A stretch of DNA of 39,768 bases. Source: a virus. Every line of letters begins with the position of its first letter. The first letter of the stretch is position 1. The position numbers were made by a program, and so were the translations under genes. This document shows, piece by piece, positions 6,083-39,768 of the stretch. The notes beneath the pieces are model-generated. The model was not told where the DNA came from and made no database searches. It saw only the letters and a program-made list of their open reading frames with translations. Location: positions 1 through 39,768 of IMG/VR virus record IMGVR_UViG_3300025687_000113; one strand, written 5' to 3'.

Positions 6083-6101
6083 AAAACATCCCCCCTGCTT
6101 T

Positions 6102-6383: not shown

Positions 6384-6399
6384 TTTTAAATACTCCTTG

Positions 6400-6414
6400 G
6401 TTAACTGAGTTAAC
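6400..6414. promoter_or_regulatory. Perfect palindrome operator below the leftward promoter
   Basis: GTTAACTGAGTTAAC is a perfect palindrome with 7-base arms around a central G. It sits just downstream of the -10 box at 6418-6423, around the predicted transcription start. A dimeric repressor here would shut off the replication unit. Confidence 0.55.
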
Positions 6415-6417
6415 TAC

Positions 6418-6446
6418 AATATAGTGTGCACGATTAACCAAATCAA
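6418..6446 (-). promoter_or_regulatory. Leftward early promoter (replication unit)
   Basis: On the minus strand TTGATT (6441-6446), a 17-base spacer and TATATT (6418-6423) match sigma70 spacing exactly. It drives the 93-residue gene and the replication genes behind it. Confidence 0.65.
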
Positions 6447-6484
6447 CCCACCACCCCTAAAAATTTAAAAATTAACCAACTTTA

Positions 6485-6562
6485 GTTTACAACCATGATG
6501 GCATTGTAAACCAGTTCTATAGATTGCAATCGCCCCGCCACTACTCCGTAAACCAGTTTTAT
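6485..6562. promoter_or_regulatory. Repeated GTAAACC boxes in the control region
   Basis: An inverted pair GTTTACAA (6485-6492) / TTGTAAAC (6504-6511) is followed by a direct repeat: GTAAACCAGTTCTAT (6506-6520) recurs as GTAAACCAGTTTTAT (6548-6562), 42 bases or about four helical turns apart. A further TGTAAACC lies at 8743-8750 in the other divergent control region. The boxes look like sites for a shared regulator. Confidence 0.5.
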
Positions 6563-6590
6563 ATAAACTTTATTTTTTGCAAATAAATAT

Positions 6591-6619
6591 TTGACGATGC
6601 GATGGTAAAGACGTTTAAT
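6591..6619 (+). promoter_or_regulatory. Rightward promoter of the recombination unit
   Basis: TTGACG (6591-6596), a 17-base spacer and TTTAAT (6614-6619) form a good sigma70-type promoter 40 bases before the recT start codon. It is the rightward counterpart of the promoter at 6418-6446. Confidence 0.65.
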
Positions 6620-6659
6620 AAAAACACGCGATAACGCGCAAACAAAAAGGTATTTTTTT

Positions 6660-7472
6660 ATGAGTAAGGCAATTGCAAAATTAGCAGAGCGTTTTAATAG
6701 TGACGAAAAAGAATTAATTGCGACGTTAAAAAACACGGCTTTTAAAACAAAAGATGGTGTTGCTACAGATGCGCAAATGCAAGCATTGTGCATTGTTGCA
6801 GACCAATACGGGCTTAATCCCTTTTTGAAAGAAATTTATGCTTACCCCGACAAGCAAAACGGCATTGTGCCGGTCGTGGGGTTGGACGGTTGGACGCGCA
6901 TCATAAATAGTCATCCACAATTTAACGGCATGGCATTTACATATAGCAACGACAGCGAGGAAATGCCTAACGGCAAAAAGTGCCCTGCTTGGTGTGAAGT
7001 AACTATTTATAGAAAAGATCGAGAGCACCCCGTAATTGTTCGTGAATTTTTAGATGAAGTTTATAGGGATGCATTTACAGGTAAAGGGCAAAACGGCAAA
7101 CCATACACTATCAACGGACCATGGCAAACTCACACAAAGCGAATGCTGAGGCACAAAACGCTAATCCAAGGCGCCCGCCTCGCCTTTGGCTTTGCTGGCA
7201 TCTATGACGAAGATGAAGCGCAACGCATACAAGAATCTGAAGCGCCTAGAATCGATCACAGCAAAGGGCAAGTTATTGAAGGGAAATGGTCCAGCGAACC
7301 CGAAACAATAACTCATGAGCAAGCTGAACAGCTTAGAACGCTTATTGCAAACGCTGGCATAGATGAAACAAAATTTTGCGCTGATCCAAAAATAGCTATC
7401 GGATGTTTAGAAGAATTTCCTAGCGCTAGGTTTGAGGGCGCAAAAAATTATCTTAGTTCACTAGCCAAATAA
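6660..7472 (+). CDS. recT: RecT/Bet single-strand annealing protein
   Basis: This 270-residue protein belongs to the Bet/RecT family, which coats single-stranded DNA and anneals complementary strands during phage recombination. Typical segments are GLNPFLKEIYAYPDKQ (about residues 51-66), VGLDGWTRIINSHPQF, CPAWCEVTIYRKDR and the basic stretch TKRMLRHKTLIQGARLAFG. Its length matches lambda Bet (261). An AAGG ribosome site precedes the ATG. The partner exonuclease gene follows 51 bases downstream, the usual pairing. Confidence 0.93.
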   Translation: MSKAIAKLAERFNSDEKELIATLKNTAFKTKDGVATDAQMQALCIVADQYGLNPFLKEIYAYPDKQNGIVPVVGLDGWTRIINSHPQFNGMAFTYSNDSEEMPNGKKCPAWCEVTIYRKDREHPVIVREFLDEVYRDAFTGKGQNGKPYTINGPWQTHTKRMLRHKTLIQGARLAFGFAGIYDEDEAQRIQESEAPRIDHSKGQVIEGKWSSEPETITHEQAEQLRTLIANAGIDETKFCADPKIAIGCLEEFPSARFEGAKNYLSSLAK

Positions 7473-7523
7473 TATTACCGCCGCCGGTCGGTTACCGGCA
7501 TTCACTAATTACGGGGAAAAATC

Positions 7524-8165
7524 ATGGTAATACACGTTAAGTGCGAACAGGGCGAGCCAGAATGGTTTGAAGCGCGCGCCGGGGTTATCACCGCGAGTAT
7601 GTTTGGCGAAGCCAGAAAGAAACTAAAAAGCGGAAAAGAAAAAGGCGAACCGACAAAAGCAGCACGCGATTATGCCTTTAAACTCGCTATAGAACGAATC
7701 AGCGGCGAATTGTTAGATGATCCTGAGTTTGACTCATGGCAAGCGCGTCGCGGTCGTGAGCTAGAACCAGAGGCCAGAATGAAATACGAAAGCAGAACTA
7801 AAACTTTGGTTGAGCAAGTAGGTCTCGCGCTCACTGATGATAGAAAGTTTGGTTGCTCTCTCGATGGCATCATAAGCGATAAAAAAACGCTTGAAATAAA
7901 ATGCTTTTTATCACCATCAAAAATAAAAAACATTATCTTAAATAGAGATATAGGCGAATGTATTGATCAAGTACAAGGTGGACTATGGATAACTGGAGCT
8001 GAATATTGCGATTTTGTGTTGTACTGCCCTGCTCTTAAATCAATAGAAAAAGATATGACTATAATCACAATAGAAAGAGACAATGATTATATAGAAAAAC
8101 TTGAATTGGACTTGTTAGAATTTGAATCGCTAGTGAATAACTATGTTGAACAAATTAAGAAATAA
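7524..8165 (+). CDS. exo: Lambda-type (YqaJ) 5'-3' exonuclease
   Basis: The enzyme digests the 5' strand at DNA ends and hands the 3' strand to RecT. The 213-residue protein shows WFEARAGVITAS near the start, RRGRELEPEAR (about residues 75-85), and the catalytic PD-(D/E)xK core GCSLDG (D114) with LEIKC (E124, K126). QVQGGLWITGAEYCDFVLY follows. Length and order match the lambda exonuclease/YqaJ family. A GGGG ribosome site lies before the ATG, and the end overlaps the zinc-ribbon gene by 23 bases. Confidence 0.92.
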   Translation: MVIHVKCEQGEPEWFEARAGVITASMFGEARKKLKSGKEKGEPTKAARDYAFKLAIERISGELLDDPEFDSWQARRGRELEPEARMKYESRTKTLVEQVGLALTDDRKFGCSLDGIISDKKTLEIKCFLSPSKIKNIILNRDIGECIDQVQGGLWITGAEYCDFVLYCPALKSIEKDMTIITIERDNDYIEKLELDLLEFESLVNNYVEQIKK

Positions 8166-24677: not shown

Positions 24678-25469
24678 TGTGCCGCTCTCCAACGTTTTTA
24701 TTAATGATTCTAATGAACCCATTTTATCCGCCATGCCTACTTCTACCGCTTCCGCTCCCATCAGTAGGCCGCCTTGACCAAAATACTTTTCAACAAAATT
24801 TGATGTGGTTTTTCTATACGTCGCAACGTCATTGATAAACACGCCGGCCATTTTATCTACCATGGCCTGGACTTCTGCGCGGCCTTCGTCTGTGTCTGGA
24901 TCTAATCTCTTTTTGGGGCTTTGGCTGCTTACAATTTCTATTGTTTCGCCATCGTCGCCGCTTAGATCAATAGTTGCAACTGTTCCAATACTACCGACTA
25001 AACCAGTTGAACTTATTATAACCTCATTTGCAGCACTTGCTAACCAATAACCTGCACTGGCGGCCATAGCGCCGACATAGGCTACAGTGTGTTTTGGCGT
25101 TGTGTGTATCATTTCCGCAAGCGTGCTGATCTCTGTTGCTTCGCCGCCTGGAGTGTCAAAATTGAAAACTATATTGTTAATATTTTCATTTTGCTCAGCA
25201 TCGCCAATCGCCTTTGCGATTGCTTCCGTGCTAGTTGCGCCGCTTATTTCTGTAAATAGGTTCGCATAACGGAATACAGGCCCGCTTATATTAATAATAG
25301 CGGTGTTACCTCTATATTCTAAAGTCCTGTTTTCTTTGTCTAAGTCTCCGTTTTCTTTTGCGAGCGCTTTTAGGTCTTCGTTATTCCTGCTCGCTATCTT
25401 TGCTATCTTCGTCAGTGCCTCCGTCTGAATCGCCCACGGGGTCCGGCTGATCTTTGTCAGTGCTCTCAT
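24231..25469 (-). CDS. S49-type head maturation protease with scaffold tail
   Basis: The 412-residue protein cleaves scaffold and portal parts during head assembly. The S49 (SppA-like) core is FNFDTPGGEATE, YVGAMAASAGYWLASAA with the nucleophile Ser in MAASAG, and GLVGSIGTVAT. From about residue 265 to the end it is helical and charged, as expected for scaffold. An internal ATG at 24677 gives a separate scaffold product. It overlaps the portal gene by 89 bases. Confidence 0.88.
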   Translation of the reverse strand: MRALTKISRTPWAIQTEALTKIAKIASRNNEDLKALAKENGDLDKENRTLEYRGNTAIINISGPVFRYANLFTEISGATSTEAIAKAIGDAEQNENINNIVFNFDTPGGEATEISTLAEMIHTTPKHTVAYVGAMAASAGYWLASAANEVIISSTGLVGSIGTVATIDLSGDDGETIEIVSSQSPKKRLDPDTDEGRAEVQAMVDKMAGVFINDVATYRKTTSNFVEKYFGQGGLLMGAEAVEVGMADKMGSLESLIKTLESGTMSEEKKGVFFAVEDFNAEFIKANYSELYSSIFEAGAEQERARIQAVKEQSIPGLETEIESMMFDGKTSGEQAAVAMLKAIKEQGAQVAAQIAQVQAPIHDEPEDTRDPIEKEWDTNAGGCRDQFSSFANFKSYKQGAAKGVIRIIGRQ

Positions 25470-26961
25470 ATTGTGTTGCTCCTAATAATGATTCAAGTAT
25501 ATTTTCTTTAGCCCGCTGCGCATAGTTCTTTTCGTAGTCGCCGCCATCTATTTCAAGCGTTTCTTTTGTTCGCGTAGTTAACCCTAAAGATATACGTTTT
25601 TCTGCTGCGTTAATATCTTTTAGCGGGTCAAGGCTTCCGAAAGCATCACCCACCCAAATAGATCTAAGATAAGCCTGGCGGGTTTCATAATCTGCAAAAA
25701 ATCCTGGTGCGTTTAGCCTGCCTGTTGCCACCGCTTCAATAATCACTGATTCATAAATCGGTTGGCAGAATCCTTGAGCAAACCATTGCCTACGCTCCCT
25801 GAACGCCCTCTGCGCCTCGTTTAATGCTGCGCGGCTTGCGCTATAGCTCGCGGTGAAATGCTTAATCATAAGCTCATAGGGAAGCCCTAGAGCTACGCCA
25901 ATCTGTCGGACCACTGCAAGCACGAAGCCATCAAAAGCGGTGTTTGGTCTGCCGGGGTTCGCGGTGCTTATGTCCTCGCCTTCAGCAAGCCCAACGATGG
26001 CACCATTCCCCATGCTGTAATCACTGTCACCCGGTCGGCTCGCGTCGTCGCCCTCGTAAAAATCCAGCTCAGAATTCCCGTCAGGGCTTTTTACAAAAAC
26101 AGTAAACAAACCAGACACAACCGCCGCCTGCAATTCTGCTTCTGTATAGCGTCCAATTTGTTTAAATGCCTCTATCACTGGCGCAAGTATTGGCCGCCCG
26201 CGTGGCTCGCCTATTGCGCGCTTACGGAACGTGTGCAGGATATCGGTGTTGTAACCGTCGGCGCTTTGACGTCTATACCTAGACCACTTCACAGGCTCTT
26301 TATAGCTAGCGGGGTTTATGTTGCTTATGTGGTACCAATTAGGAACGCCAAAACTATCTCGCTCTATGCCTCCTGCAATCCTTCTTGAATCCATTTTTCG
26401 ATCAGGATTAGATACCCGCTTTGGATCTATCAATCGCCAACACGTTCCTATAAATTCACGGTTTATAAATTGTCTTTGCGCGAATGCATCACCCGTTAAA
26501 AGTGTAGAAATAAAAGCTGTTTGCTGCATAGCCCAAAAGTTTTGCTCTTGCTTTGCGTCGCACAACTTTGTTCGCGCCCACAAGTTAAAAATTCGCTCCG
26601 CGTCACGTTGCCATTCTTCGGCTTGTGCGTCTGGCATCCCTAAAAAATCGGCGTCTATTTGGCTTTGTAGTTTTAATCCTGTGCCTATTATGTTGTCACA
26701 TAACGAAGATATAGCACCATGCGCCATAGGGTTATTGCGGTCTAAATCATAGGACCTATCAACCAATGTTTCATAGTCCTCTAACAAAACCTCGCCACTA
26801 TCCGCCGGCCTTGTTCGCCAGCTTGAAAGGCTTTTACGTGACTTTGAAGCACCGCTAAACCCATCAAGCGCGCCTATCGCCATTTTTGCACGCCTTCGCT
26901 CAAGCGCTTTTTGTGGATCTCGCCACTCGTAATATTTATCTATAAGCGTCTTTTTAGTCAC
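25381..26961 (-). CDS. Portal protein, lambda gpB family
   Basis: The 526-residue protein forms the 12-fold portal ring. Recognisable parts are LVDRSYDLDRNNPMAHGAIS, FNLWARTKLCDA, LTGDAFAQRQF, the block ILHTFRKRAIGEPRGRPILA, and LPYELMIKHFTASYSASRAA, all typical of lambda-type portals. Length matches lambda gpB (533). The acidic Asp/Glu-rich end (about residues 500-526) overlaps the protease gene. The start overlaps gpW by 8 bases. Confidence 0.92.
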   Translation of the reverse strand: MTKKTLIDKYYEWRDPQKALERRRAKMAIGALDGFSGASKSRKSLSSWRTRPADSGEVLLEDYETLVDRSYDLDRNNPMAHGAISSLCDNIIGTGLKLQSQIDADFLGMPDAQAEEWQRDAERIFNLWARTKLCDAKQEQNFWAMQQTAFISTLLTGDAFAQRQFINREFIGTCWRLIDPKRVSNPDRKMDSRRIAGGIERDSFGVPNWYHISNINPASYKEPVKWSRYRRQSADGYNTDILHTFRKRAIGEPRGRPILAPVIEAFKQIGRYTEAELQAAVVSGLFTVFVKSPDGNSELDFYEGDDASRPGDSDYSMGNGAIVGLAEGEDISTANPGRPNTAFDGFVLAVVRQIGVALGLPYELMIKHFTASYSASRAALNEAQRAFRERRQWFAQGFCQPIYESVIIEAVATGRLNAPGFFADYETRQAYLRSIWVGDAFGSLDPLKDINAAEKRISLGLTTRTKETLEIDGGDYEKNYAQRAKENILESLLGATQYESTDKDQPDPVGDSDGGTDEDSKDSEQE

Positions 26962-27182: not shown

Positions 27183-27764
27183 TTAACTCATCCTAATTCG
27201 CTGCAATCTGTAGTTAAGCTGTTGCTGAAAGCGTCTATAAAAAACACGCTGGCCCGCCCTAGAATACCAAGCGCTTACACGCTCTGCGCCTTGTATTTTT
27301 ATTCTGTATATAAGGTTCGCGACTTCGTGAGAATTCCAGCTATTTTCATATCTGTTTTTATTTGCAAGCCTCATCCCCCATATCATTTGGCTACTGTTCC
27401 GGCCTTTAAATAAAAAGGGTTGACCGTGTACCGCTTTATTTTTCCAAGGCTTAGCTGAAGCTGAGGTGGCATCAGCGTATGTGTAGCCTCTTGATTGTGT
27501 CATTGTCTCGCCATATTCGTTTATATAAACAGATCCGCTTAACTCTCTTTTTGAAGGCTTAATGTAAAAAACAACCTTTTTTCGTCTTATGTCTTTGTTT
27601 CTTAACCTCAACTTTTGGGCAGCATAACGGACGCTTAGAACCTCGACACGCTTTGTTGCTGCCCGTAGTGCGTTAAGTGCCGCCGGCCTAACCGCTCTCT
27701 GCTCAAAGCGATCCAGGCCGCGCATAACATCATCTATATCTGCTTCTACGTTTATAGTTATCAT
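27183..27764 (-). CDS. Minor tail protein Z-like
   Basis: The 193-residue basic protein matches lambda gpZ (192) in length and plan: RPAALNALRAATKRVEVLSV near the start, then a basic segment LRLRNKDIRRKKVVFYIKPS, and a C-terminal helical stretch. Z-like proteins connect head and tail. In lambda the gene lies after FII; here it has moved in front of gpW, next to the large fibre-like genes. Confidence 0.65.
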   Translation of the reverse strand: MITINVEADIDDVMRGLDRFEQRAVRPAALNALRAATKRVEVLSVRYAAQKLRLRNKDIRRKKVVFYIKPSKRELSGSVYINEYGETMTQSRGYTYADATSASAKPWKNKAVHGQPFLFKGRNSSQMIWGMRLANKNRYENSWNSHEVANLIYRIKIQGAERVSAWYSRAGQRVFYRRFQQQLNYRLQRIRMS

Positions 27765-30694
27765 TTAACTATAACCTGCAATTCTCTTTCGGCTGTCATA
27801 CAAACGCCATCAGGGTGTTTAGTATCAAAGTAATCAATGTTCAACAAATAATTACCGGCAGTTGCCCCTGAATCAGAAAGCCTTACGTTAAACTTTCCAC
27901 CCAAAGGGCTTAAGTCAAAGCTTAACGGGTTATCAATTTTATTAAGGGTAAATGTAGAATCCCCTATAAGCGTACAAATTATATTTGTTGAATTATTCAG
28001 CTCGAACGCAATGCCGTCATTGTAAAATTGCACCTGAGACCAATTGTCGCTTAATGCTTTTGTTTTTGTTCTATATGGGTCACCATAAAACTTAACAAAC
28101 TGTACAGAAGGGTCAAATATTGCTTCAAGTTCTTCTGCTGCTGTTAGCGTATTAATTAAAAACGAATCGCTAACGCTTCCGTTTTCGTTTACCCCTTGAA
28201 CCGTTATAATGAAAGGGCTTGATGCGTCGTCTGTATTTGTAAAAACCCCGCCTAGTCCTGTTGCTGTTTGTATTATTCCAGTTCCAGCGGGCAAACCTGA
28301 TACAACATAACTTGTTGCGCCGCTTATATAATTTGAAAACGTTACGCTTACCGGGGAACCTATAGCAAACGATAAATCGGGAAAGCCAGCGGTAAGGGTT
28401 GGCGTTGTTGCCTGTGTTACTGTTGCAATAAATGTTCCGTCAGTACTTCCGTCTGAGTTTGTAGCTCTTACTGTTACTGTGTACGGTGAGCTATTAAAAT
28501 CAGAGGAGTTTGGCGTTCCCGTTATTATTCCTGAATTGTTTATAGTTAAGTTTGAGCCTATTGGAATATTCAAAAGACTATAACTAATGGCGCCAGTAAA
28601 ATATACGCTAACGTCAAGAGTGAATGCTTGCCCTACTGTAAGAGACTGGCCTGTAATCGGTCCAGAAAAAACCGGCGGCGCGCTTGCGCTGATCGTTGTT
28701 GTAAATGTTTGCCACGCGCTGGAGCCATCAGCGTTTGTTCCCCTGGCACGCATTGAATAAGGGCTATTTGTAACTGATAGCGCGTTTGGCGTTCCCGTTA
28801 TTGCTCCAGTTGTTGAGTTAAAGGTTATTCCGTATGTTGCAAGCGTTGCGGTTGCGTCTGATCCATCAATTTGTAATTCATATGAGGTGCTATTGCCTAT
28901 ATACTCATTAAGAGATAGCGAAACAGGCACGTTTTCTTGCCAGCTTCTATCAGTTAATGTTTGCAATATTGTTGGAGGATTTATTCTATAAACCAACAAG
29001 TCAAAGGCTATAGAACTTGAACCGGTGGCATTTGTTGCCGTTACCGTAAGTGATTGTGTTTGAGTAGTTCCCGCTGCGCCTGTTGAATCTACAGTGGTGT
29101 TTGGCGTTCCAGTTAAAACACCCGTTGTCGAATTAATACCAACAACCCCGGAACCTGACAAAATACCAGATATTGAATAGCTATTTGCATCAGTTGCGAA
29201 TGCGCTTAAATCAATACTAAAAGCAGACCCCGTTGAAACGTTTTGATCAGGTATTGATGACCAAACCGGCGCCGTCCCTGTCGCTATTGTTGATAACACC
29301 ACGGGGCCTTCGAGCGTTCGCCCGCCGTGTTGATCTTCTAAACAAAGAAAAATCCAATAACCGGCGCCCGCTGTTGGCAATCCATTTACCGTAACAATTT
29401 CTTCAACCGTCGCGGCTTGTTGTTGAAGACCTGAATCAAAAAGCGCTGCGTTACCGTCTGGGCCTTGTCCCGCCATGACTTGCGATTTAGTCGGCGTGCC
29501 AAAACCGCGAGGTATTGCAATCAAACGATAATCACCATTAGCGCCTGCCACCTCTGAACCCTCATCAGAAGTGAACCGCATTTGGCCGCCGCTAGTTGTC
29601 GAGCTATTCGGCACGACTTCGAGCGGGCTAGTTAGCGTTGGACCTGTACCAGTTAGCGTTACAGAAAAGGGGCCTATTCGAGAATATCCGGCGCTCTTGT
29701 CTCTAATATAAATCCCATCAACTTTAACTGACCGTGTTCCGTTTACCGTCATCAACCCGTCCGAAGCAAACGATACTGTCCGGGTGTTTCCTGCGGCATC
29801 TGTTACAGTTAATGGATAATCAACTTGATCACCCGCAAGTAAATCAGAATCCGTTATAGCGGCATTGAGCGGTGAGTCTGGGTTTAGTCCACCATAACTA
29901 ACATCAAGCGTTGTTACAGTGTAACCAGAGCGAGCGATACTAAAAACAATAACTGCGGTATCTGTCCCACCTGCGCCATCATTTACAGTAAACGTAGATT
30001 CTACCGTTTCTTCGTAAAAGTATACGCCCTGCACGTTTGACCCAGTGAGATTAATACCAGAAGGCAAGACATCTACAGAATAAGACAGCGTATCTCCCAC
30101 GTCGGGATCTGTTGCTGCAATACTAAATAGATCAATATCTCCAACAGTAGCAACCACATTAGAAACGCCGCCGAATGCTGGCGCCGTGTTTGCTCCGCTT
30201 TGCGTATAACTGAGTCCCTCAATTGCTCCTGTGGAGGCAATGATGTGCCATACCGTATAAGTGGCATTCGCGCCAGTAAATGAGCCATCAGGAGCAATTG
30301 AAATCGTGTTAGGAAAAACTATCTGGTCGCCCGCAACTGGCGTTGTTGTGAAAGTCATCGGACCTGAATAGCTTGTAAGTGTGACATAGCTAAAGCTGTC
30401 AGTTATATCTGTGTCTAGTTCTACGGATGTGGAAGCACTCTTGCCTGCTGCCCTAACATGGCTTACCGCTTGTATGGCGCCAGTTGCCGCAACAATATGT
30501 CTTACCGTATAAGACCCAACCGGGCCTTCTATGCTGCCATCGTTAGCGACAGTCAATCCAGTAGGGTACTCGATTTGATCGCCAGAAACCGGTGTTGTTG
30601 TCCACGTTATAGAACCGGCATAACTCGACAGCGTTATAACGTCGCGCCCTATATTTTCTTGTAGCGTAAACGCTGAGCTAGTAGCTGTGGCCAT
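27761..30694 (-). CDS. Giant Ig/cadherin-repeat protein, 977 aa
   Basis: The protein has no signal peptide. Its N-terminus holds two similar repeats (SGDQIEYPTGLTVANDGSIE and AGDQIVFPNTISIAPDGSFT). A cadherin-like domain (ATDPDVGDTLSYSV) follows, then several putative Ig (He_PIG-type) repeats marked by TTGVLTGTPN, TTGAITGTPN and NSGIITGTPN. The C-terminal domain (about residues 855-977) is different. Such repeat proteins decorate virions or form fibres that bind carbohydrate surfaces. Its place beside gpZ and gpW suggests a virion protein on head, neck or fibre. Confidence 0.65.
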   Translation of the reverse strand: MATATSSAFTLQENIGRDVITLSSYAGSITWTTTPVSGDQIEYPTGLTVANDGSIEGPVGSYTVRHIVAATGAIQAVSHVRAAGKSASTSVELDTDITDSFSYVTLTSYSGPMTFTTTPVAGDQIVFPNTISIAPDGSFTGANATYTVWHIIASTGAIEGLSYTQSGANTAPAFGGVSNVVATVGDIDLFSIAATDPDVGDTLSYSVDVLPSGINLTGSNVQGVYFYEETVESTFTVNDGAGGTDTAVIVFSIARSGYTVTTLDVSYGGLNPDSPLNAAITDSDLLAGDQVDYPLTVTDAAGNTRTVSFASDGLMTVNGTRSVKVDGIYIRDKSAGYSRIGPFSVTLTGTGPTLTSPLEVVPNSSTTSGGQMRFTSDEGSEVAGANGDYRLIAIPRGFGTPTKSQVMAGQGPDGNAALFDSGLQQQAATVEEIVTVNGLPTAGAGYWIFLCLEDQHGGRTLEGPVVLSTIATGTAPVWSSIPDQNVSTGSAFSIDLSAFATDANSYSISGILSGSGVVGINSTTGVLTGTPNTTVDSTGAAGTTQTQSLTVTATNATGSSSIAFDLLVYRINPPTILQTLTDRSWQENVPVSLSLNEYIGNSTSYELQIDGSDATATLATYGITFNSTTGAITGTPNALSVTNSPYSMRARGTNADGSSAWQTFTTTISASAPPVFSGPITGQSLTVGQAFTLDVSVYFTGAISYSLLNIPIGSNLTINNSGIITGTPNSSDFNSSPYTVTVRATNSDGSTDGTFIATVTQATTPTLTAGFPDLSFAIGSPVSVTFSNYISGATSYVVSGLPAGTGIIQTATGLGGVFTNTDDASSPFIITVQGVNENGSVSDSFLINTLTAAEELEAIFDPSVQFVKFYGDPYRTKTKALSDNWSQVQFYNDGIAFELNNSTNIICTLIGDSTFTLNKIDNPLSFDLSPLGGKFNVRLSDSGATAGNYLLNIDYFDTKHPDGVCMTAERELQVIVK

Positions 30695-30710: not shown

Positions 30711-31700
30711 TTATGCGTCGTCTAGTGTGGCCGTTACATTGCCGAACAATAAAAAATTACCCGAACTACCCGCCGAAGGAAGGTTAGGAACAGTGCCCGT
30801 AAATGTTCCCGTGCCGTCTCCGGCTGAGTCATCGATGGTTATAGTTACGTCTAAGCTGTTCGTCCCATCAGTTAAAACCAGTGGGGACGTGGGCGCTGTT
30901 CCTGGCGTAAATCCTGAATAGCTGCCGGATATTGTTCCGCCTGGAACAATAACGGCTTGATCAATTGTTAATGCCGTGTTTGATACTTCGCTTAGTAATA
31001 TAGCGATCGATACCGCCGCCTTGTTACCTGTAGTATCTGTATCGTCGTTAGGGTAGGTTATTGTGGTAGTAACTGACGTTGAATCATTTAATAAAGGGTT
31101 AAAGTGATACGCAGATTGTTTTGTTGTTACTTGCTCCGAGAGCCACCCTAAGCCATGCGCATGTGGATTAACTAAAGCATAAAGGCTTGTACCGCCAGTG
31201 TGGCTGAAATTAAAGTCGCCCCCTGAATTATCAGACGGGTTGGTGATAACCCAAGCGATAGCTGTTTTTCCAGAATTGGCGCCAAAATTATGCGTTAACG
31301 TAGATTCGCCGCCGCCGTTGTTTGCATGGGTAAGTAAGTTGTAATCCGGGTTTATACCCTGATCAGCACCAAACGCAGCAAAGCAAATCACCGGCCTTCC
31401 ATTTGCCAGCGGTGTCATAGTTATATTGTTTGCACCTGCCGGGATATCAGCTTCTTTTATATACCATAAACTATATAGAGTTGCTTTGTAATTGTTTAAA
31501 TATAAAGCCGGGGAAATTAACTGCGTGGCTGCTTGGGCGCCATAAGATATCCCAGTCAAGCGGTTAGCAGTACTCTGATCACCCCGTCCAGTCACAAGAA
31601 AGAAAAGTATTCGATTGCTTCCAGCGGGTGCAGTGTAAAGACTGTCACCGTTAGCCGGATCTCCACGCCGAACTGTATAATCAGAAAACGTAATAGCCAT
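30711..31700 (-). CDS. Beta-sandwich virion-type protein, 329 aa
   Basis: Residues about 1-225 form a beta-rich domain (GDSLYTAPAGSNRILFFLVT, GTSLYALVNPHAHGLGW) of the kind seen in phage appendage or lectin-like proteins. The C-terminal 90 residues are an Ig-like domain (TIDQAVIVPGGTISGSYSGF to GNVTATLDD). No signal peptide is present. It lies in the extra block, one base overlapping the upstream secreted gene. It may assist adsorption; no enzyme motif is visible. Confidence 0.55.
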   Translation of the reverse strand: MAITFSDYTVRRGDPANGDSLYTAPAGSNRILFFLVTGRGDQSTANRLTGISYGAQAATQLISPALYLNNYKATLYSLWYIKEADIPAGANNITMTPLANGRPVICFAAFGADQGINPDYNLLTHANNGGGESTLTHNFGANSGKTAIAWVITNPSDNSGGDFNFSHTGGTSLYALVNPHAHGLGWLSEQVTTKQSAYHFNPLLNDSTSVTTTITYPNDDTDTTGNKAAVSIAILLSEVSNTALTIDQAVIVPGGTISGSYSGFTPGTAPTSPLVLTDGTNSLDVTITIDDSAGDGTGTFTGTVPNLPSAGSSGNFLLFGNVTATLDDA

Positions 31701-32125
31701 TACTGAACCTCAAAAGTGAAATTTGAACGCGGGGAAATCCAACCATCAGCGGCCACCGCCTCGACATACCCTTCGTGGCTTCCCGTAGAAAAGTTACTTG
31801 TCACGCCAGCATAGTTCGCCGGTACAATTATAACCTCGTACTCTGTATCGCCTACCAATCTATGCCGTACCTCGTAAACATATAGCGTTATTGGATCTCC
31901 GTTTGAATCCGTAACAACCGGTGACCATCTTATTGTTGCGTTGTTAGTGTCCGCGGTTATAGGGTCGAATACATCACCAAATATTGGCTGCTCGCCATCG
32001 GCAACAGCATCAGAAACAAGATTTCCATTATCAACCCTTCCTGGTGTGACGGTATCTGTCACCTCTAAAGCGTAAGCAATTACCGAAAAAACCAGACCAG
32101 CAAAAAGCAAAGCGTTTTTTATCAT
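31700..32125 (-). CDS. Secreted fibronectin-III-like protein, 141 aa
   Basis: A signal peptide (MIKNALLFAGLVFSVIAYAL) is followed by one beta domain with a fibronectin-III-like strand pattern (ATIRWSPVVTDSNGDPITLY, YEVRHRLVGDTEYEVIIVPA, FSTGSHEGYVEAVAADGW). It overlaps the cytochrome-like gene by 4 bases and should be translated with it. A periplasmic partner of that protein is the simplest guess. Family not recognised beyond the fold. Confidence 0.55.
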   Translation of the reverse strand: MIKNALLFAGLVFSVIAYALEVTDTVTPGRVDNGNLVSDAVADGEQPIFGDVFDPITADTNNATIRWSPVVTDSNGDPITLYVYEVRHRLVGDTEYEVIIVPANYAGVTSNFSTGSHEGYVEAVAADGWISPRSNFTFEVQ

Positions 32126-35100
32126 GGCGTACTCACTGACACGGTTGCTGGTTGCGATGGGGTCACAATAGGCGCTTGCGCTGTGAATCTTGACGTTATT
32201 GTCTCAGTGTTGCCAGAATTATCGTCAACAGTAACGCTGAACACGTAGGTATTGCCTACTGACAAGGCTGGCATATTAGCCTTAACAATCCCACGCTCGT
32301 CTCTATCAAATGACGTGATATTTAAAACAGTACCCGGCGTTGACGTATCGTAATAGCTCAAAGATAACGTGGCCCAATTTACGCCAGACTGAGCATCTGT
32401 GACGCCTACCCTTATTTTTTGGTTTATCGGCGCTGAACCGTTTTGTGGGCTGTATATATGAAGCGCTGGTAATTGATTATCGTCCTCATAACCAAAACCG
32501 TCGGTGCTTACCCCTGGATAATTTATCGGTAATCCTAGATCAACCCACCTCGCGATAGTTCGCTTTTCTTCAAACGTTAGCGACAATGCTGGGTGTGCGT
32601 CTGGGTAATCAACGTCATCCCCTCGTGTGGCGTTTGTTCTCCCGTCCAAGCGCTCACCCCACGCCACCCACACAAACTGTGACATGCGGGCTTGCGGGCT
32701 TCTTATCCATTTTGATACTTGTGGCTTTATATAATCGTAACCGCCTGACTTTGTAAGACGGGGCCATACTGCGTCGCCGTCATCCAATATTAGGGCCGAA
32801 CCGGACCCGCCTGCAGTGTGGCACGCTACACACTTGGCATCAATTATTGGCTTTACGTCTCGATTATATTCGATATCCCACGAGCCGCCGGTCTTTATAT
32901 CTACGCCGCCATTTTCTGAAATAACCGGCACCCTATCTCCTGTCAAATCCCAATATGAATAAGCGATCATTTCGTCTGTGTCAGACAAACCTGAAACGCC
33001 CGTTATCGGCATACCTTTACCAGCTTGTGTTGTTTCAAAATCAAGTTGCGTGGTGTCTGTGCTGTGTACGTGACAACCGCCGCAATCCGTTCTTTCTTCG
33101 CCTGGTGGAAGGCTGCGCCACACTGTCTCTGAATAAAGAGTCATGCCGTTAGCGTCTAATGCCTGAATTGTTGTTGGTGTGTCACTCGGTATTTTTGCCC
33201 ACCAGCTTGTATCATTGTTGCCCTGTCCGTCGATAGTCGATTTGTGTGTTAGCGGGAACTCGCCTAGAATTTCCCAGCTCTCATCATGAACAGCCGCAAA
33301 TCTTCTTGGCTCTCTGTTTTGCCTTGAGTCTTCTTGATATAACCCCAGACCTGAGTTTGATGTACCTGTTAGAATGGGGGAAGTAAAGGGTATCTCAGGG
33401 ATTGCTAGAATTCGAACCGCATGAACGTCTTCATCATTAAATAGACCAACCTCTGTTCCGAATATTGCCCATTCGCCGCCGTGAAGCTCTCTTTGAATGT
33501 TGTTTTTAAATCTATGGTCGTGATATGTCTCACGATTAATCATAGAGCTTGTGCCAATCATAGCGGCTGCTTCGCCTTTGGCTACGTGTTTCGAACCGGC
33601 TTCTTTTCTGACGGAAGGGATAACATCGGGCGCAGACTGGCCGAAAACATCACTATATGGGACCAATGCACGCGGCCATATCTCATTGTATGAAGGATCG
33701 TCTATCATTACTGCAAGCTGGTTGGCGTCTTCGGGATCTGTTACAGAAGCCGTCTCCGCATTTTTGAATAAATAAATCCCCGACTTTAGCGCTTCGCATC
33801 TTGACCCATTGGGATACGGATTAGAAAGCCCGAACCTAGTGCCATCTGGTTGCCCTGAGCATGCTGGCGGGTTGGAAACTGCTGCGGCATCGCATAAAAC
33901 ATAACACCCTGCATCAAAAACATTTACATAGCCGGGGCTGTACGACACAAGCATGTGCCCGCTTTTCCCCCATGATGGATAGGAATATTTGCCCTCTCTA
34001 TCATCCCCATAAGGAACATCTAAACCGCTTCTGCTTGGCATATCGCCATTTTCTGAGTGAGGCGTTATGACCCATACATTATCTGCGTTTGGCCTATCAA
34101 GAAAGCGCTTACTCCATGTTGATGTTATGTTCTTAACTTTTTGCTGTGGAAAATTCCCAGGCAAAAAAGATCCGTTGTGCGGTGCTACGTCATAGCGAAC
34201 CAAGGCACCGAAACCAAAGTCATAAGACGGATAATACCAACTTACAACAATGTCCTCGTTTGCTAACTGTGTTATAAAATGATTAACATTTTTTGCGTGG
34301 TCGTGCGGCTCGGTAAACTGCTGTAGGTTTGACCCGTCCGGGTGCATAGTAAAAAGCTCTGTCATCGCATACCGAAACTTATGCGCGAAGTCTTGCCATG
34401 TCGAAAACATGATCCGGCCGTCTTTAAGCTGCATGGGATGCTGTATCATGCTCATGCCGCTTTTTTCTATTTGAAGCATGTTTGATAGTTCCGGCGTGTT
34501 CATTGTGCCGTCATGGTCGTCTATCGTGTACATATGCTGAACCGAACTATCCATATGAGTCGTGCCAGTTTTGAACCCAATGGTGCCCGCACGGTTGCTC
34601 GTGAAAAGTATCTTACCGTTTGATAACGGAACCGGGGCCATATCACGGATAAGCCGGCACCCTATGAAATTAATACACGTGACTAAATCGTCTTCTGGGT
34701 CCGTGTTGCCGGCATACTTTGACGAGTTATAATTGCCTGGAAATGTTAGCTGAACCTCTGTGTATGGCGCTGTGCCGCTTACGTCCACTTTATATATATA
34801 TCCTGCGGCATACTTACCAGCAATTGCCTTTGGTATCTGACCATCGGACGTTGGTATATCAATTATTTTTGAATAATAAACCGTTGTACCGTCATAACTG
34901 ACGTATGGGTCCATTACTGAACATGTGGCATCACAATCGATAATCGTTTCTGTTGATCCGTCCGGCTTCAGCCTCATAAGATCAGCGCCGCCTAAAATCC
35001 TATATGGTCTTTCGCCCTGCGGAATGTCGCCCTCGTTCAGATTTATAGGATAATTCACGTAGATAATGTCGTAATCAACACCATGATCTTGTGGTGCTGC

Positions 35101-35151
35101 ATGGGCAAAACACGCAATAAACGCAATGCAGAAACATATAATCTTATTCAT
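32122..35151 (-). CDS. Secreted dihaem cytochrome c with beta-propeller (HzsA-like)
   Basis: The 1009-residue protein starts with a signal peptide (MNKIICFCIAFIACFAHA). Residues about 55-500 form a PD40/TolB-like beta-propeller (blades such as LMRLKPDGSTETI, LSNGKILFTSNRAG, LKDGRIMFSTW, ELFTMHPDGSNLQQF). Two haem-c motifs follow: CGGCH (690-694) after LPPGEERTD, and CVACH (774-778) after RDVKPIIDAK. The final 110 residues are Ig-like. Propeller followed by two c-haems is the plan of the hydrazine synthase alpha subunit and its relatives in non-anammox bacteria. The gene sits between phage genes with one- to four-base overlaps, so it is part of the late operon. Electron-transfer or oxidoreductase activity is inferred; the substrate is unknown. 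Confidence 0.8.
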   Translation of the reverse strand: MNKIICFCIAFIACFAHAAPQDHGVDYDIIYVNYPINLNEGDIPQGERPYRILGGADLMRLKPDGSTETIIDCDATCSVMDPYVSYDGTTVYYSKIIDIPTSDGQIPKAIAGKYAAGYIYKVDVSGTAPYTEVQLTFPGNYNSSKYAGNTDPEDDLVTCINFIGCRLIRDMAPVPLSNGKILFTSNRAGTIGFKTGTTHMDSSVQHMYTIDDHDGTMNTPELSNMLQIEKSGMSMIQHPMQLKDGRIMFSTWQDFAHKFRYAMTELFTMHPDGSNLQQFTEPHDHAKNVNHFITQLANEDIVVSWYYPSYDFGFGALVRYDVAPHNGSFLPGNFPQQKVKNITSTWSKRFLDRPNADNVWVITPHSENGDMPSRSGLDVPYGDDREGKYSYPSWGKSGHMLVSYSPGYVNVFDAGCYVLCDAAAVSNPPACSGQPDGTRFGLSNPYPNGSRCEALKSGIYLFKNAETASVTDPEDANQLAVMIDDPSYNEIWPRALVPYSDVFGQSAPDVIPSVRKEAGSKHVAKGEAAAMIGTSSMINRETYHDHRFKNNIQRELHGGEWAIFGTEVGLFNDEDVHAVRILAIPEIPFTSPILTGTSNSGLGLYQEDSRQNREPRRFAAVHDESWEILGEFPLTHKSTIDGQGNNDTSWWAKIPSDTPTTIQALDANGMTLYSETVWRSLPPGEERTDCGGCHVHSTDTTQLDFETTQAGKGMPITGVSGLSDTDEMIAYSYWDLTGDRVPVISENGGVDIKTGGSWDIEYNRDVKPIIDAKCVACHTAGGSGSALILDDGDAVWPRLTKSGGYDYIKPQVSKWIRSPQARMSQFVWVAWGERLDGRTNATRGDDVDYPDAHPALSLTFEEKRTIARWVDLGLPINYPGVSTDGFGYEDDNQLPALHIYSPQNGSAPINQKIRVGVTDAQSGVNWATLSLSYYDTSTPGTVLNITSFDRDERGIVKANMPALSVGNTYVFSVTVDDNSGNTETITSRFTAQAPIVTPSQPATVSVSTP

Positions 35152-35435
35152 CAGTACCCACCAGACATATAGACTGCCCTAGCTGCCGACCTAACTGGTA
35201 TGCCCGGCTCTACTTTGCACAGATCCCATACTGCCGCGAAAAAAGACGCTTGAGACTTACCATCTGTTTCGCCTGACATGGCCTCAAGAAAGCCAGACAG
35301 ATATTGCGAGTAAAACGCATGTTCGTCTGGGCTTGCATCTATAAAGCCGCCGCAAAACTCCCAAGGCTGCGTGTAATCCTCAGAAAACGCCATAGGAGAA
35401 AATAACATAACCATTGCTAAGATTAACGTTTTCAT
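35151..35435 (-). CDS. Small secreted protein, weakly Rap1a-immunity-like, 94 aa
   Basis: A signal peptide (MKTLILAMVMLFSPMAFS) precedes a helical domain with two Cys (EFCGGFIDAS, WDLCKVEPG) and the pattern YLSGFLEAMS ... CKVEPGIPVRSAARAVY. Rap1a/Tai-type immunity proteins share a signal peptide, a Y(L/V)xG helix and a Cys followed by PxGxxxxxxxxxVxxY. The likeness is suggestive only. It overlaps the cytochrome-like gene by one base. An accessory or maturation subunit of the cytochrome is an equal alternative. Confidence 0.5.
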   Translation of the reverse strand: MKTLILAMVMLFSPMAFSEDYTQPWEFCGGFIDASPDEHAFYSQYLSGFLEAMSGETDGKSQASFFAAVWDLCKVEPGIPVRSAARAVYMSGGY

Positions 35436-35436
35436 A

Positions 35437-37143
35437 TTACGCCCCCAGCGCCACGGTGCTAACGTTTGATAAATTATCTATTGTTGTTTCGCCCGCTGAC
35501 TTATCCACGAACGCGCTTGCGCCACCGTCAAGGTTTAACAGCGTTATGCCGGGGTGATATACGTTTTTTGTGGCGTTGGTGTCGTTTTCGTTCCAGAAGT
35601 GACGTGGAAAATCAGAGCCGTTTCTTGTGACTTTCGGATTGTCTAGCCAATATACCGTTGGCGACACTCCGACATCTGACCGTAGGTTAACGCAGTAATG
35701 CGCACCGGATTGTCGGCAATTTGAAAAATCAAATGTTGTGTTTGATCCAATAACAACAGCGCCAGCGTTAACGTCGAAGGGCATTTTTACGCCGTGTACT
35801 GTGACGTTACTGTGAATTAGTTTTGCATATTTACCAACAGCAATTCCACGGTCGGCATCTGTAAAGCTGCAATTATCGAGATACACAACAAGCTCGTCGG
35901 CGCTTGCTCTGTCTACAATATCAAGCACCTCGGCGTTATCACCGCTGTTTTGTATATCCCTAGAATGAAAGTCAGATATTTTTACTTTATTAATAATTCC
36001 TGAAGCTTTTCCGTGATCAACGTTTGATACTCGTATGCCGCCAACGCCACCTATTGATCTAATGTTGCTGATAGTCTCGTTATAACTTCTGCTTTGGTGG
36101 GTTATTCCTAACGTATCTGCTCTGTCTCTCACCGGATAATGAGCGGTAACATCACATACTAAACCGTCTGCGCCCTCTTCGTGTGTGTCTGTTGCGCACC
36201 CATAAGAATAATAACTATCAACGCCGCGGCACACAAAATTGGTTGGATATCCACGCTGGTGCCATGTGGTAGTGTTATTATTATTACCGTCTGTAGTAAA
36301 AGCTGGGTGCCTGCAATTTAAAACTACCGCGTGAGTAGCGGTGCAATTGTCGTTCATACCGTACTGGCTAACGCCGTATGAGTAGCCGTTATAATCAGCA
36401 TTGTTATGTGCGTTATACATTGCATAGTGGTGTACTTGGGCATCAAAACAGCACGTGTGCATTATGAACATCGCCCACGGTCTATCATAAGATGCCCTAG
36501 TAACCCTAGGATGGCAGAAACCTTCAAAATAAATACAGCGCTCCCTAACTGTTATATTAGTGTCGTCGGGGTCGCCATTTGGCACTACTTTGACGCCATC
36601 AATTTCAAATTTTCTGGTTTTATCTAATTTACGAACTCGGATGTTTGTTGTCCAAAGTGAGGGGCGCGCCAATGGCTTGTTAGTGCTAACAACTAGGCTT
36701 GTTTCATCTTGTATTACTTGCTTAATTTCCCCGAGATAACCGCCGCTTTTTGAAGGGTTTCCGTCGTCGCTATACACTGCTATGACGTCATGAGCGACTA
36801 TCCCTAGTGTGCTTGCTAGCGTTAGCTCTGATGTTTTTGTGCGTCCTACGCTGCCAAGCGCGTGAGTTGCAACTACCTCTGCGCTGGCGTTGGCAGTGTT
36901 GCGCACGTCAATGCATCGCGCGTCATTGTCTTGGGCCAAATTCAAATCTTTAAGCAAAACATCATCAGTTGCGCCCAGTGAACCACGCTGCCCAAAGTTT
37001 CTAAGCAGGGCCAGCGTACCCGGCGCTTGGGTGACTCTATTCCCCTGATTTGCTGAGACAAACTGCTCAAGTTCAACAGCCATGTCTGTTGCGCCTGTCG
37101 GGTCGCTGGGTACCCAGATAACTGAACCATACGGCATGATCAT
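35437..37143 (-). CDS. Beta-helix tailspike-like protein, 568 aa
   Basis: The protein begins like a spike (GSVIWVPSDPTGATDMAVEL). From about residue 190 to 480 it shows repeated short strands with Asn/Asp/Gly turns (RHPAFTTDGNNNNTTTW, GGIRVSNVDHGKASGIINKV, SFTDADRGIAVGKYAKLIHS), a right-handed beta-helix as in pectate-lyase-like phage spikes. There is no signal peptide. A polysaccharide-binding or depolymerising role is plausible. It overlaps TerL by 4 bases, an unusual place because spike genes normally follow the tail tip gene. Confidence 0.65.
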   Translation of the reverse strand: MIMPYGSVIWVPSDPTGATDMAVELEQFVSANQGNRVTQAPGTLALLRNFGQRGSLGATDDVLLKDLNLAQDNDARCIDVRNTANASAEVVATHALGSVGRTKTSELTLASTLGIVAHDVIAVYSDDGNPSKSGGYLGEIKQVIQDETSLVVSTNKPLARPSLWTTNIRVRKLDKTRKFEIDGVKVVPNGDPDDTNITVRERCIYFEGFCHPRVTRASYDRPWAMFIMHTCCFDAQVHHYAMYNAHNNADYNGYSYGVSQYGMNDNCTATHAVVLNCRHPAFTTDGNNNNTTTWHQRGYPTNFVCRGVDSYYSYGCATDTHEEGADGLVCDVTAHYPVRDRADTLGITHQSRSYNETISNIRSIGGVGGIRVSNVDHGKASGIINKVKISDFHSRDIQNSGDNAEVLDIVDRASADELVVYLDNCSFTDADRGIAVGKYAKLIHSNVTVHGVKMPFDVNAGAVVIGSNTTFDFSNCRQSGAHYCVNLRSDVGVSPTVYWLDNPKVTRNGSDFPRHFWNENDTNATKNVYHPGITLLNLDGGASAFVDKSAGETTIDNLSNVSTVALGA

Positions 37144-38954
37144 ATACCCTTGCTAATTGTTCCGCGTTTGCGTTTTTTGCGCTTAACCTCCCCAATAGGG
37201 GGGCTTGATTCATCGGCATTTCTTTCGTAGACTTTTTTAAGTTTAGGCCAAACAGGGTTTAACATTGTTATTGCAGCGTAATTATAAACTCTAATATCTA
37301 ACGGCTCGTTGCGCTTTCCTGGCTCAAGAACCCATTTTTTTACAGGAAAACCTGCCTTATTTTTAGAATTAACCAACTTTTCAGCTGTTAAACCTTCAAA
37401 ATATAATTCATCATTTTTAAAGTTAAAATGGCAATAGCCTGCACCTGGCTCGGTTTGCTTCAATCGTCGCTCTAGCCATATCTTAGCCTGATCAACGGCA
37501 ATATTCCATAATGAAACCTTCTTACCTGTTCTTTTGTTCTTGCTTGTGCCCTGCTTTATGAGCGGAAGCCCCCAGCCGCCCACGCCTCGCACGGGCCATA
37601 CGCGCTCTGGCCTCATCTTTTCGGCAAAATCATATACCTGTTGCGTGTGGTGGCCGCCTAAATCTATTGCCATACATGAAGCGCGCATTCTGTGGCCGCT
37701 TTGATGCATAAAAGTGTTATTTAAAAAATAATCTTTTAAATCTTTCCAGACTTGTTCTCGTGATGGGTCGCCAAGTATCACGCCATAGGCCATTGACCAT
37801 GATTCTAAGCCCTCACCCCACGCTACAACCTCATATTCTAGCCGGTTGTCTTGCACGTCAACGGCCATAGTGAGCGCTAGCGCTGATTGTGGGACTTCCT
37901 CGTAGTTCTCGCGCCGTGCGAGCAGTGTGTGCGGGTCTGCGCGCTCTCCGGCCTCTTCCCAAACCTCAGCTTCTACTGTATTTTTAAAAACCTTTAACTT
38001 TTCGGCATTACCTTTTGCTTTCAAAAACTTTTGTTCTATTTCTGACCATGTTACAAAGTTTGAAGCGTACCCGTTTAACCAAAAACCCCTGTCTGGGTTG
38101 TCTGGATTCTCGTGAATATAAACACCTTCTCGTGACTTCCATTCTTGCTCTGTGTGTATTGAACCGCACTCGGTGCAAGTTGCCCTTATATTTAATCCGT
38201 CGATTACTAAAGTGTCACGGCATACCCAATTGGGATAGTCACAAGAAGGGCATAACATGCAATACTTTCCCATGCTGGTCTTTTCGTAGTGATCTGTTAT
38301 TTGGCATATATGCTTATCAGTTGGTGTGCTGACTAAAAATATAAGCTTGTTGTGAAACGTCGTTGTACGGGCTTCTGCAAGGTCTACGGGGTCGCCTTCA
38401 GTGCCTGCGCTCTCGTTGTATCGGTTTATTTCGTCGCATAATAAAATTCTGATAGGTCGGCTTGCTAATGATGCTGGGCTGTTGCTACCGATTAAAGAAA
38501 CATGACCACCTGCAAATGTTTTATGTAAAATAGTGTTATTTGCCGTTCTGCTTTTTGCGCTGCTGAATATATCCCTTAAAACCTTTGTATCTCTTATCAT
38601 TGTGCTAAGGCGATCTTTTGAAAAAGCCTCAGCCATTGATTCTGTGGGCTGTACTAATAACATAGGGCCGGGGTCGGTGTGTGCGTAATATCCTATAATA
38701 TTAAGCAAAAGTTCAGTTTTTCCCACCTGACTTGCAGACTTAACCACTACTCTTTTATATTCTGGATTTTTGCAGGCGTTCATTATTTCGCGGAAATACG
38801 GAGCGCGACTCGTGCGCCATAGTCCAGCCTCTGCGCTGGCTTCGCGTGATAAAACTCGGTAGGTGTCTGCCCATTCTGAAACGGGTATGTCAGGTGGGGG
38901 TTTAAATGAATTGTATAGCTTTGAAGTTGCTTTTTTTAGGCGTGGGTTATTCAC
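37140..38954 (-). CDS. Terminase large subunit, lambda gpA family
   Basis: The 604-residue protein is the packaging motor and cos nuclease. Walker A is SASQVGKT (residues 73-80) and Walker B is LLCDE (171-175). A Cys cluster (CMLCPSCDYPNW with CTEC) follows the ATPase. The nuclease region shows the acidic blocks TMAVDVQDNRLEYEV and CMAIDLGGHH. gpA-type terminases cut at cos, which agrees with the terminal repeat. Length is close to lambda A (641). Confidence 0.95.
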   Translation of the reverse strand: MNNPRLKKATSKLYNSFKPPPDIPVSEWADTYRVLSREASAEAGLWRTSRAPYFREIMNACKNPEYKRVVVKSASQVGKTELLLNIIGYYAHTDPGPMLLVQPTESMAEAFSKDRLSTMIRDTKVLRDIFSSAKSRTANNTILHKTFAGGHVSLIGSNSPASLASRPIRILLCDEINRYNESAGTEGDPVDLAEARTTTFHNKLIFLVSTPTDKHICQITDHYEKTSMGKYCMLCPSCDYPNWVCRDTLVIDGLNIRATCTECGSIHTEQEWKSREGVYIHENPDNPDRGFWLNGYASNFVTWSEIEQKFLKAKGNAEKLKVFKNTVEAEVWEEAGERADPHTLLARRENYEEVPQSALALTMAVDVQDNRLEYEVVAWGEGLESWSMAYGVILGDPSREQVWKDLKDYFLNNTFMHQSGHRMRASCMAIDLGGHHTQQVYDFAEKMRPERVWPVRGVGGWGLPLIKQGTSKNKRTGKKVSLWNIAVDQAKIWLERRLKQTEPGAGYCHFNFKNDELYFEGLTAEKLVNSKNKAGFPVKKWVLEPGKRNEPLDIRVYNYAAITMLNPVWPKLKKVYERNADESSPPIGEVKRKKRKRGTISKGI

Positions 38955-39219
38955 TTTTTGTTTTTTCTTTTTCTTTTATTCCTAGGCAATAACCAAATAA
39001 CGTTTTGAAGTCATGAAATACGATTACGCATTTACCGCTTTCTCTTTCTAAGACTTCATAGTAATATTCATTTTCAAACTCAAGCCTTAGCCCTAGGCTT
39101 TTTAGTGTTTTAACACAGTAATAAAATTGCCTCTGATACTTGTAAAGCTTCACATAGTCGGGATTCATTCGACAGTTTTGTTCCTGTCCTAATTCATCAT
39201 AACTTTTTGATTCACTCAT
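38947..39219 (-). CDS. Small protein between the terminase subunits, 90 aa
   Basis: Not recognised. The ATG at 39219 (MSESKSYDEL) overlaps the TerS stop as ATGAGTGA, so I prefer it to the ATG at 39240. The protein is charged, with a central aromatic stretch (KLYKYQRQFYYCVKTL) and a strand-rich end. It overlaps TerL by 8 bases. It could be a packaging accessory factor. Confidence 0.5.
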   Translation of the reverse strand: MSESKSYDELGQEQNCRMNPDYVKLYKYQRQFYYCVKTLKSLGLRLEFENEYYYEVLERESGKCVIVFHDFKTLFGYCLGIKEKEKTKSE

Positions 39220-39694
39220 CGTAATAGCTCTCTGTTTCAACCGTTACACTATCAAGCGTTGCGGTAAATTCTTTTTTTAACTCTGATTCTATTTTTCTTG
39301 GGTCATCAATCGGCGCTAATATTTTTGATAACTTTGCTGGCAGTGCTAGTATGTTGTTGCGTAGTGTTATCGCTGCATTGCACCATACTCGCTCTGCGGT
39401 TTCTATTAAAACCAATTCGCCGCGCCCTCGCATTACTTTTAATTCTCTTTCGTCTGCTTGTGCTTTTGTTAATCGTGCTCGCTCCGCATAGTAATCCGTC
39501 TCTGAGTCGCCGCTGCTTATATTCCCTTTAAGCATTTGGATATAATTATTAACGCTTTTTATTAGATCGTATGCGTTTCTTTCTGGTTTTATTATTATTC
39601 CCTTTTTGCACAAATCTTGTACTTGTGTGTGAGACAAGCTTAGAGCCGCACAGATTGCGGCTTGGTTAACAAGTATCTGATTTGTGGTTGTCAT
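39212..39694 (-). CDS. Terminase small subunit, Nu1-like
   Basis: The 160-residue protein begins with a winged helix-turn-helix (NQAAICAALSLSHTQVQDLC, residues 9-28) that would bind cosB. It then has the helical oligomerisation region with DYYAERARLTKAQADERELK and the closing block LPAKLSKILAP, both typical of lambda Nu1-type (phage DNA packaging) proteins. The gene starts 74 bases from the end of the window, where cosN/cosB would lie. Confidence 0.88.
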   Translation of the reverse strand: MTTTNQILVNQAAICAALSLSHTQVQDLCKKGIIIKPERNAYDLIKSVNNYIQMLKGNISSGDSETDYYAERARLTKAQADERELKVMRGRGELVLIETAERVWCNAAITLRNNILALPAKLSKILAPIDDPRKIESELKKEFTATLDSVTVETESYYDE

Positions 39695-39768
39695 GCATTA
39701 GTTGTATCCGTTCAAACGAAGGTTACCTAAAAAAATTGCGCCTAGCGAAAAAACGGGCGTTGGCCCTG
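39695..39768. other. cos region (packaging site) and right copy of the terminal repeat
   Basis: Read on the minus strand from the end, the sequence is CAGGGCCAACG, then CCCGTTTTTTCGCTA, then AATTTTTTTAGGTAACC. Lambda's left end has its overhang followed by CGGGTTTTCGCTA and AAAATTTTCCGGTT, so the order and sequence match the lambda cos pattern. The last 11 bases (39758-39768) repeat bases 1-11. The small terminase gene begins directly beyond, as in lambda. Confidence 0.75.

Follow-up and report, generated by a model that had tools for sequence, protein, structure and literature searches.

The closest described counterpart of the protein analyzed here is HzsA, the hydrazine synthase alpha protein (PF18582 / NF052339; structure 5c2v), which combines a beta-propeller, an HZS_alpha middle domain with a CxxCH motif and a C-terminal cytochrome c domain with a second CxxCH motif. 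The proximal haem ligand of HzsA is Tyr591, four residues past the CxxCH histidine (PMC12607021, PMC12758564). Key residues are absent from non-anammox HzsA homologues, and Cys303 is also missing in Scalinduaceae (PMC12758564), which makes this cysteine a weak marker of HzsA. Uncharacterized bacterial HzsA-like dihaem proteins, annotated as 'HZS_alpha / cytochrome c domain-containing', have been treated in two studies (PMC12758564, PMC10732223). Phages are known to carry redox-type AMGs related to cellular genes, e.g., dsrA, soxC, and soxD (PMC8190135). The sole claim of a phage cytochrome c that we met concerns a 'multiheme cytochrome c-like' protein of a microvirus (PMC10190252). We found no published phage HzsA-like protein in the open-licence literature, though one may be described elsewhere; judged by title and abstract, none of the open-licence papers on PF18582 deals with viruses, and papers on viruses and nitrogen mention hydrazine synthase as pathway background only.

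The window, i.e., the whole 39,768-nucleotide stretch of viral DNA that was analyzed, looks like a complete phage genome. Family matches identify terminase, portal, head protease, neck, RecT, exonuclease, replication, and RusA-like genes. Its two ends share the 11-nt sequence CGTTGGCCCTG (positions 1–11 and 39758–39768) beside the gene for the terminase small subunit (39212–39694, minus strand), and two related contigs stop at the same point beside terS; such matching ends and a common stop point would fit a cos end. The gene of interest occupies 32122–35151 on the minus strand and encodes a protein of 1009 aa. The original prediction had placed it directly between TerL and gpW, which needs correction on both sides. 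Between it and the gpA-type terminase large subunit (37140–38954, minus) lie genes for a 568-aa and a 94-aa protein, and downstream come genes for 141-, 329-, and 977-aa proteins, followed by a neck or tail-completion gene (27183–27764, minus) that is phrog_27 and gpZ-like rather than gpW, and then by the portal gene (25381–26961, minus). In Roseobacter phage CRP-831, one of the cultured phages whose TerL is nearest, a single 588-nt gene stands between terL and the portal gene; the window thus has a block of approximately 9.4 kb between terL and the neck gene. Elsewhere in the window, a 276-aa ORF (3528–4358, minus) has the look of a full-length Dcm-like cytosine methyltransferase and is overlapped in another frame by a 198-aa ORF (3587–4183) that matches the DNA methyltransferase family phrog_1008. 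Three intergenic stretches (631–789, 1790–1924, and 1945–2103) contain similar odd ORFs rich in K, Q, A, and C, possibly a repeat between early genes.

The gene and its fold are well supported. The N-terminus reads by eye as a Sec signal peptide (aa 1–18, MNKIICFCIAFIACFAHA/APQ; 35098–35151), a pattern that relatives share. It is followed by a beta-propeller region (about aa 25–520, limits approximate; 33592–35079), delimited from AF2 strands, fold matches to propellers and HZS-alpha, and conservation, in which D81, H238, H291, Y306, and Y307 are family-invariant. The PF18582 middle domain (aa 645–694; 33070–33219) scores 34.4 bits, above the gathering cut-off of 26.6, which places the protein in the HZS_alpha superfamily. 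This domain ends in haem-c motif I, CGGCH (aa 690–694; 33070–33084), with the invariant H696 just beyond. A C-terminal cytochrome c domain (aa 759–880; 32512–32877), delimited by a phmmer alignment to 5c2v and helices in the model, carries haem-c motif II, CVACH (aa 774–778; 32818–32832), and a C-terminal Ig-like domain (about aa 893–990; 32182–32475) is suggested by model strands and a Pfam Big_3_3 match that is weak and below cut-off. Two or more CxxCH motifs arose in 1 of 100,000 composition shuffles of the protein, and a motif scan found none in the other window ORFs of at least 60 aa. The AF2 model (pLDDT 83, pTM 0.88) has the succession of propeller, haem domain, and cytochrome c fold typical of the superfamily; the CGGCH loop falls below pLDDT 50, as expected without haem, and so is uninformative on haem incorporation. 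When the model was searched against the PDB with Foldseek, Kuenenia HZS-alpha came first (5c2v_A, E 9e-27, TM 0.65 by target), 5c2v_D was also among the top matches, and the next non-HZS match stood at E 2.7e-8. No match above TM 0.20 by query length was obtained among the BFVD viral structures. At the sequence level, phmmer matched Kuenenia HZS-alpha at E 1.2e-7 and a 59-sequence profile found the same protein at 2.2e-28. The predicted product is an exported c-type oxidoreductase that carries two haems and belongs to the HZS-alpha superfamily.

The likeness to hydrazine synthase alpha holds for architecture and lends no support to a link with hydrazine chemistry. The structural alignment to HzsA has only 15% identity, the phage protein has the extra Ig-like domain, and a profile alignment puts other residues in HzsA at H238, H291, and Y306/Y307, so that the set H238/H291/Y306-Y307/H696 is not that of HzsA. 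This set is a family trait: H238, H291, Y306, Y307, H694, and H696 are present in 90 of 90 copies (10 viral and 80 bacterial), where seeding the searches with CGGCH[AV]H and YY... biases the counts for haem I and Y306/Y307, while H238 and H291 are in no seed. Among 123 positions near-invariant in the bacterial proteins, the window protein keeps 111. The position equivalent to Tyr591, four residues past the CxxCH histidine, is T698 (in CGGCHVHST) and mostly Q in the bacterial relatives, and the stretch aligned with the Cys303 region (aa 270–295) contains no cysteine. H853 aligns pairwise with the distal His772 of HzsA; the four nearest viral copies retain it, but most of the bacterial proteins do not. 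In HzsA, Cys303 shares a zinc with the haem I histidine; its location just before the H291 strand suggests that H291 probably lies near haem I. The active site is predicted to differ from that of HzsA on the same scaffold. A true nitrogen-cycle gene of hydrazine-synthase type, carried as an anammox AMG, would agree with Kuenenia HZS-alpha being the best match in both structure and sequence; it is nonetheless largely refuted and very improbable, since the HzsA equivalog model NF052339 gives 46.6 bits against a cut-off of 800 and since Tyr591, the cysteine of the zinc-ligand region, and any haem gene resembling HzsB, HzsC, or a fused BC protein are absent from the window (PMC12758564). Hydrazine synthase proper was ruled out on these missing features.

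We compared the surrounding genes with those of two other IMG/VR contigs (L014 and L015/L016), in which an HzsA-like gene occupies the same slot between terL and portal. All three share the order terS-terL-[HdeA-like]-HzsA-like-[141]-[329]-[977 Ig], to which the window adds the gene for the 568-aa protein. Across them, TerL proteins are 59–76% and HzsA-like proteins 53–56% identical. Differences from L016 at codon positions 1, 2, and 3 of the HzsA-like gene (0.35/0.27/0.62) resemble the TerL pattern and indicate that the gene is under purifying selection. Its start and stop codons overlap those of its neighbors on both sides, through TGATG with the upstream 94-aa gene and ATGA with the downstream 141-aa gene, as originally predicted, and a phage origin of the gene is well supported. 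An assembly chimera or host contamination, in favor of which nothing was found, is refuted by these independent contigs and their synteny, together with the overlapping genes, the matching 11-nt ends, and the shared end point beside terS; we regard it as practically out of the question. Viral genes flank it within a viral genome, and it has cellular homologues, as expected of an AMG.

Several of the cassette neighbors look exported or carry Ig-like domains. The 94-aa protein (35151–35435, minus) has two conserved cysteines and resembles HdeA/HdeB chaperones (PF06411), which are likewise small, exported, and helical with two cysteines. Its L015 homologue scores 42.9 bits to PF06411 against a gathering score of 22; the window copy has no Pfam match, a fold search ranks HdeA structures first, though weakly (E about 0.37–0.6), and a PDB profile search with the three-sequence alignment returned no match. 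Compared with HdeA/HdeB, it is divergent and adjoins a cytochrome gene, and its chaperone role is putative. The 141-aa protein (31700–32125, minus) is also small and exported, FnIII-like by eye, 46–50% identical to its L015 and L014 counterparts, and without a Pfam match. Also conserved in the cassette are the 329-aa protein (30711–31700, minus) and the 977-aa protein with He_PIG Ig-like repeats (27761–30694, minus). The 568-aa protein (35437–37143, minus), encoded between terL and the HdeA-like gene, is an insertion found only in this phage and absent from L014 and L015; it has no Pfam match above cut-off and no PHROG match, and in our reading looks like a beta-helix spike.

Relatives in viral and cellular genomes surfaced only when a family motif was used. 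No relatives were found in IMG/VR and genome scans with single sequences, in a TerL scan of IMG/VR, or in a scan with a two-sequence alignment, and tblastn against INPHARED (50,697 records) with the HzsA-like protein P0001 and a Bacteroidota homologue as queries gave no match. A degenerate DNA pattern for PGExxxxCGGCHxH recovered five IMG/VR contigs, each with a full-length homologue, and an alignment-based IMG/VR scan recovered nine viral contigs besides the window: the two with the same cassette, L018 at 44% identity, and six at 24–27%. Several of the seven copies beyond the cassette pair adjoin tail-tip, fibre-like, or Ig-domain genes. Those of L018, L021, L022, and L023 have fibre-like or structural genes around them, and that of L020 is close to a tail module with homology to the one in the window, whereas ORF reading places those of L019 and L024 near replication-type genes. 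The L022 copy, the one phage copy that has lost haem motif II, is directly followed by a sulfatase gene (L022:12242-13981; PF00884, 168 bits). Contig L024 also encodes four tandem, mutually similar small cysteine-containing secreted proteins (5758–7806, minus), one of which matches the RTX-like repeat PF00353.

Cellular relatives were found at 296 or more bacterial genome loci, the best 80 of which were kept for analysis. These bacterial proteins are homologous over their full length (27–44% identity) with the same motifs. They are chromosomal, the nearest in polysaccharide loci, whereas the phage genes are part of virion operons that also encode exported partners. The nearest belong to Glaciecola (44%), a Moraxellaceae MAG (43%), and Endozoicomonas (42%). 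Gammaproteobacteria rarely encode the family (7 of 369 genomes), and none of these 369 genomes showed a prophage cassette or a copy that came as near as those in phages. A careful 37-row tree unites the window protein with L016 and L017 in a clade (100/100), which L018 probably joins (92/96); this group sits with Glaciecola, the Moraxellaceae MAG, and Endozoicomonas (100/98). L023 groups with Planctomycetota, and L019 and L022 with Acidobacteriota/Nitrospinota. A single viral clade was rejected (p-AU 4.4e-5), and a larger quick tree gave six label changes, but with long branches. We read this non-monophyly as at least three acquisitions by phages, and such repeated capture suggests that phages probably gain something from the gene, more likely at the cell surface of the host than through hydrazine production.

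The genomic surroundings of the phage copies and their closest cellular relatives point to the cell surface or exopolysaccharide. Each of the three relatives from Gammaproteobacteria in the group that holds the phage copies (L025, L026, and L039) is encoded in a polysaccharide locus: L025 and L026 adjoin genes for exosortase A or for an XrtA deacetylase or glycosyltransferase, and L039 lies among glycosyltransferase genes with exosortase A 27 kb away. In another clade, L037, L042, and L072 are within exosortase A/EPS clusters. Most of the 80 bacterial loci are without a conserved polysaccharide neighborhood, and the co-occurrence with exosortase by genome (5 of 7 vs. 73 of 369) is weak, falling to 3 of 5 without two genomes already known. 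A plasmid-borne Bacteroidota gene beside sulfatase and GH2 genes encodes a single protein in which NPCBM, HZS_alpha, and FGE-sulfatase domains are joined (L006:3631-7602). A Parabacteroides relative (L008:5911-8358) adjoins a ccsA gene.

Three readings of the function deserve to be weighed against this context, and we lean, tentatively and at somewhat less than even confidence, toward an exported haem oxidoreductase, not a hydrazine synthase, that acts on the surface glycan or envelope of the host late in infection. The polysaccharide loci, the sulfatase links, and the exported phage neighbors favor such a surface or matrix role over the other two, periplasmic electron transfer and a place in the virion or in adsorption, which the original prediction had raised. 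An auxiliary respiratory or redox gene, whose product joins periplasmic electron transfer in the infected host and either keeps up its energy supply or removes NO or peroxide, is an unlikely competitor: it would suit the paired c-haem motifs and the signal peptide, the characterized superfamily member is a redox enzyme (PMC12607021), and cellular relatives are spread across many phyla without a fixed neighborhood. The window, however, encodes no other CxxCH protein, the neighbors are fibre and structural genes in the phages and polysaccharide genes around the closest cellular relatives, and the rarity of the family in Gammaproteobacteria means that, if the host is one, the gene was not copied from a common host respiratory gene. 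Somewhat less probable still is a virion or adsorption component that binds the particle, perhaps through its own Ig-like domain and the neighboring Ig-domain protein, and acts at the surface of the next host. The late structural operon with its He_PIG/Ig-domain neighbors and the fibre-gene context of L018, L021, and L023 would fit this; yet a Sec signal and periplasmic haem attachment would separate the protein from cytoplasmic assembly, leaving attachment only after lysis, and the HdeA-like and 141-aa neighbors look exported too. That the protein is a haemless or decaying structural protein retaining the fold alone seems improbable: L022 has indeed lost motif II, but haem I and the conserved polar residues persist in 10 of 10 viral copies (the haem I part being biased by the CGGCH[AV]H seed) and the codon pattern is purifying.

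For the favored surface-acting oxidoreductase, we infer the substrate and the benefit to the phage as follows. The gene would be expressed late, among the structural genes; its product would be exported by Sec and receive haem from the host Ccm system, with the HdeA-like chaperone possibly helping it fold. Haem I, with its CGGCHxH motif and the propeller residues H238, H291, Y306, and Y307, may then carry out a redox reaction on some part of the host envelope, with a surface polysaccharide or matrix-linked molecule as the likeliest target, and haem II would pass the electrons on. The outcome could be a matrix loosened for release of progeny, or a receptor layer changed against competing phages. 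A broader version, unlikely as a whole though worth stating, is that several phage lineages independently recruited an uncharacterized class of exported dihaem enzymes whose redox chemistry alters or cleaves surface polysaccharide, in one lineage together with a dedicated periplasmic chaperone, as an oxidative counterpart to depolymerase tailspikes.

Unlike the phage-borne dsrA, soxC, and soxD, the HzsA-like gene is not a known host-pathway gene; it encodes an exported dihaem protein, is fixed in the structural operon of one phage lineage, and was acquired repeatedly. Such repeated capture suggests a real benefit to the phages, which, as predicted from their genes, invest in exported c-haem chemistry. 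Moreover, the short cassette offers a test system for the function of a large uncharacterized bacterial family related to hydrazine synthase.
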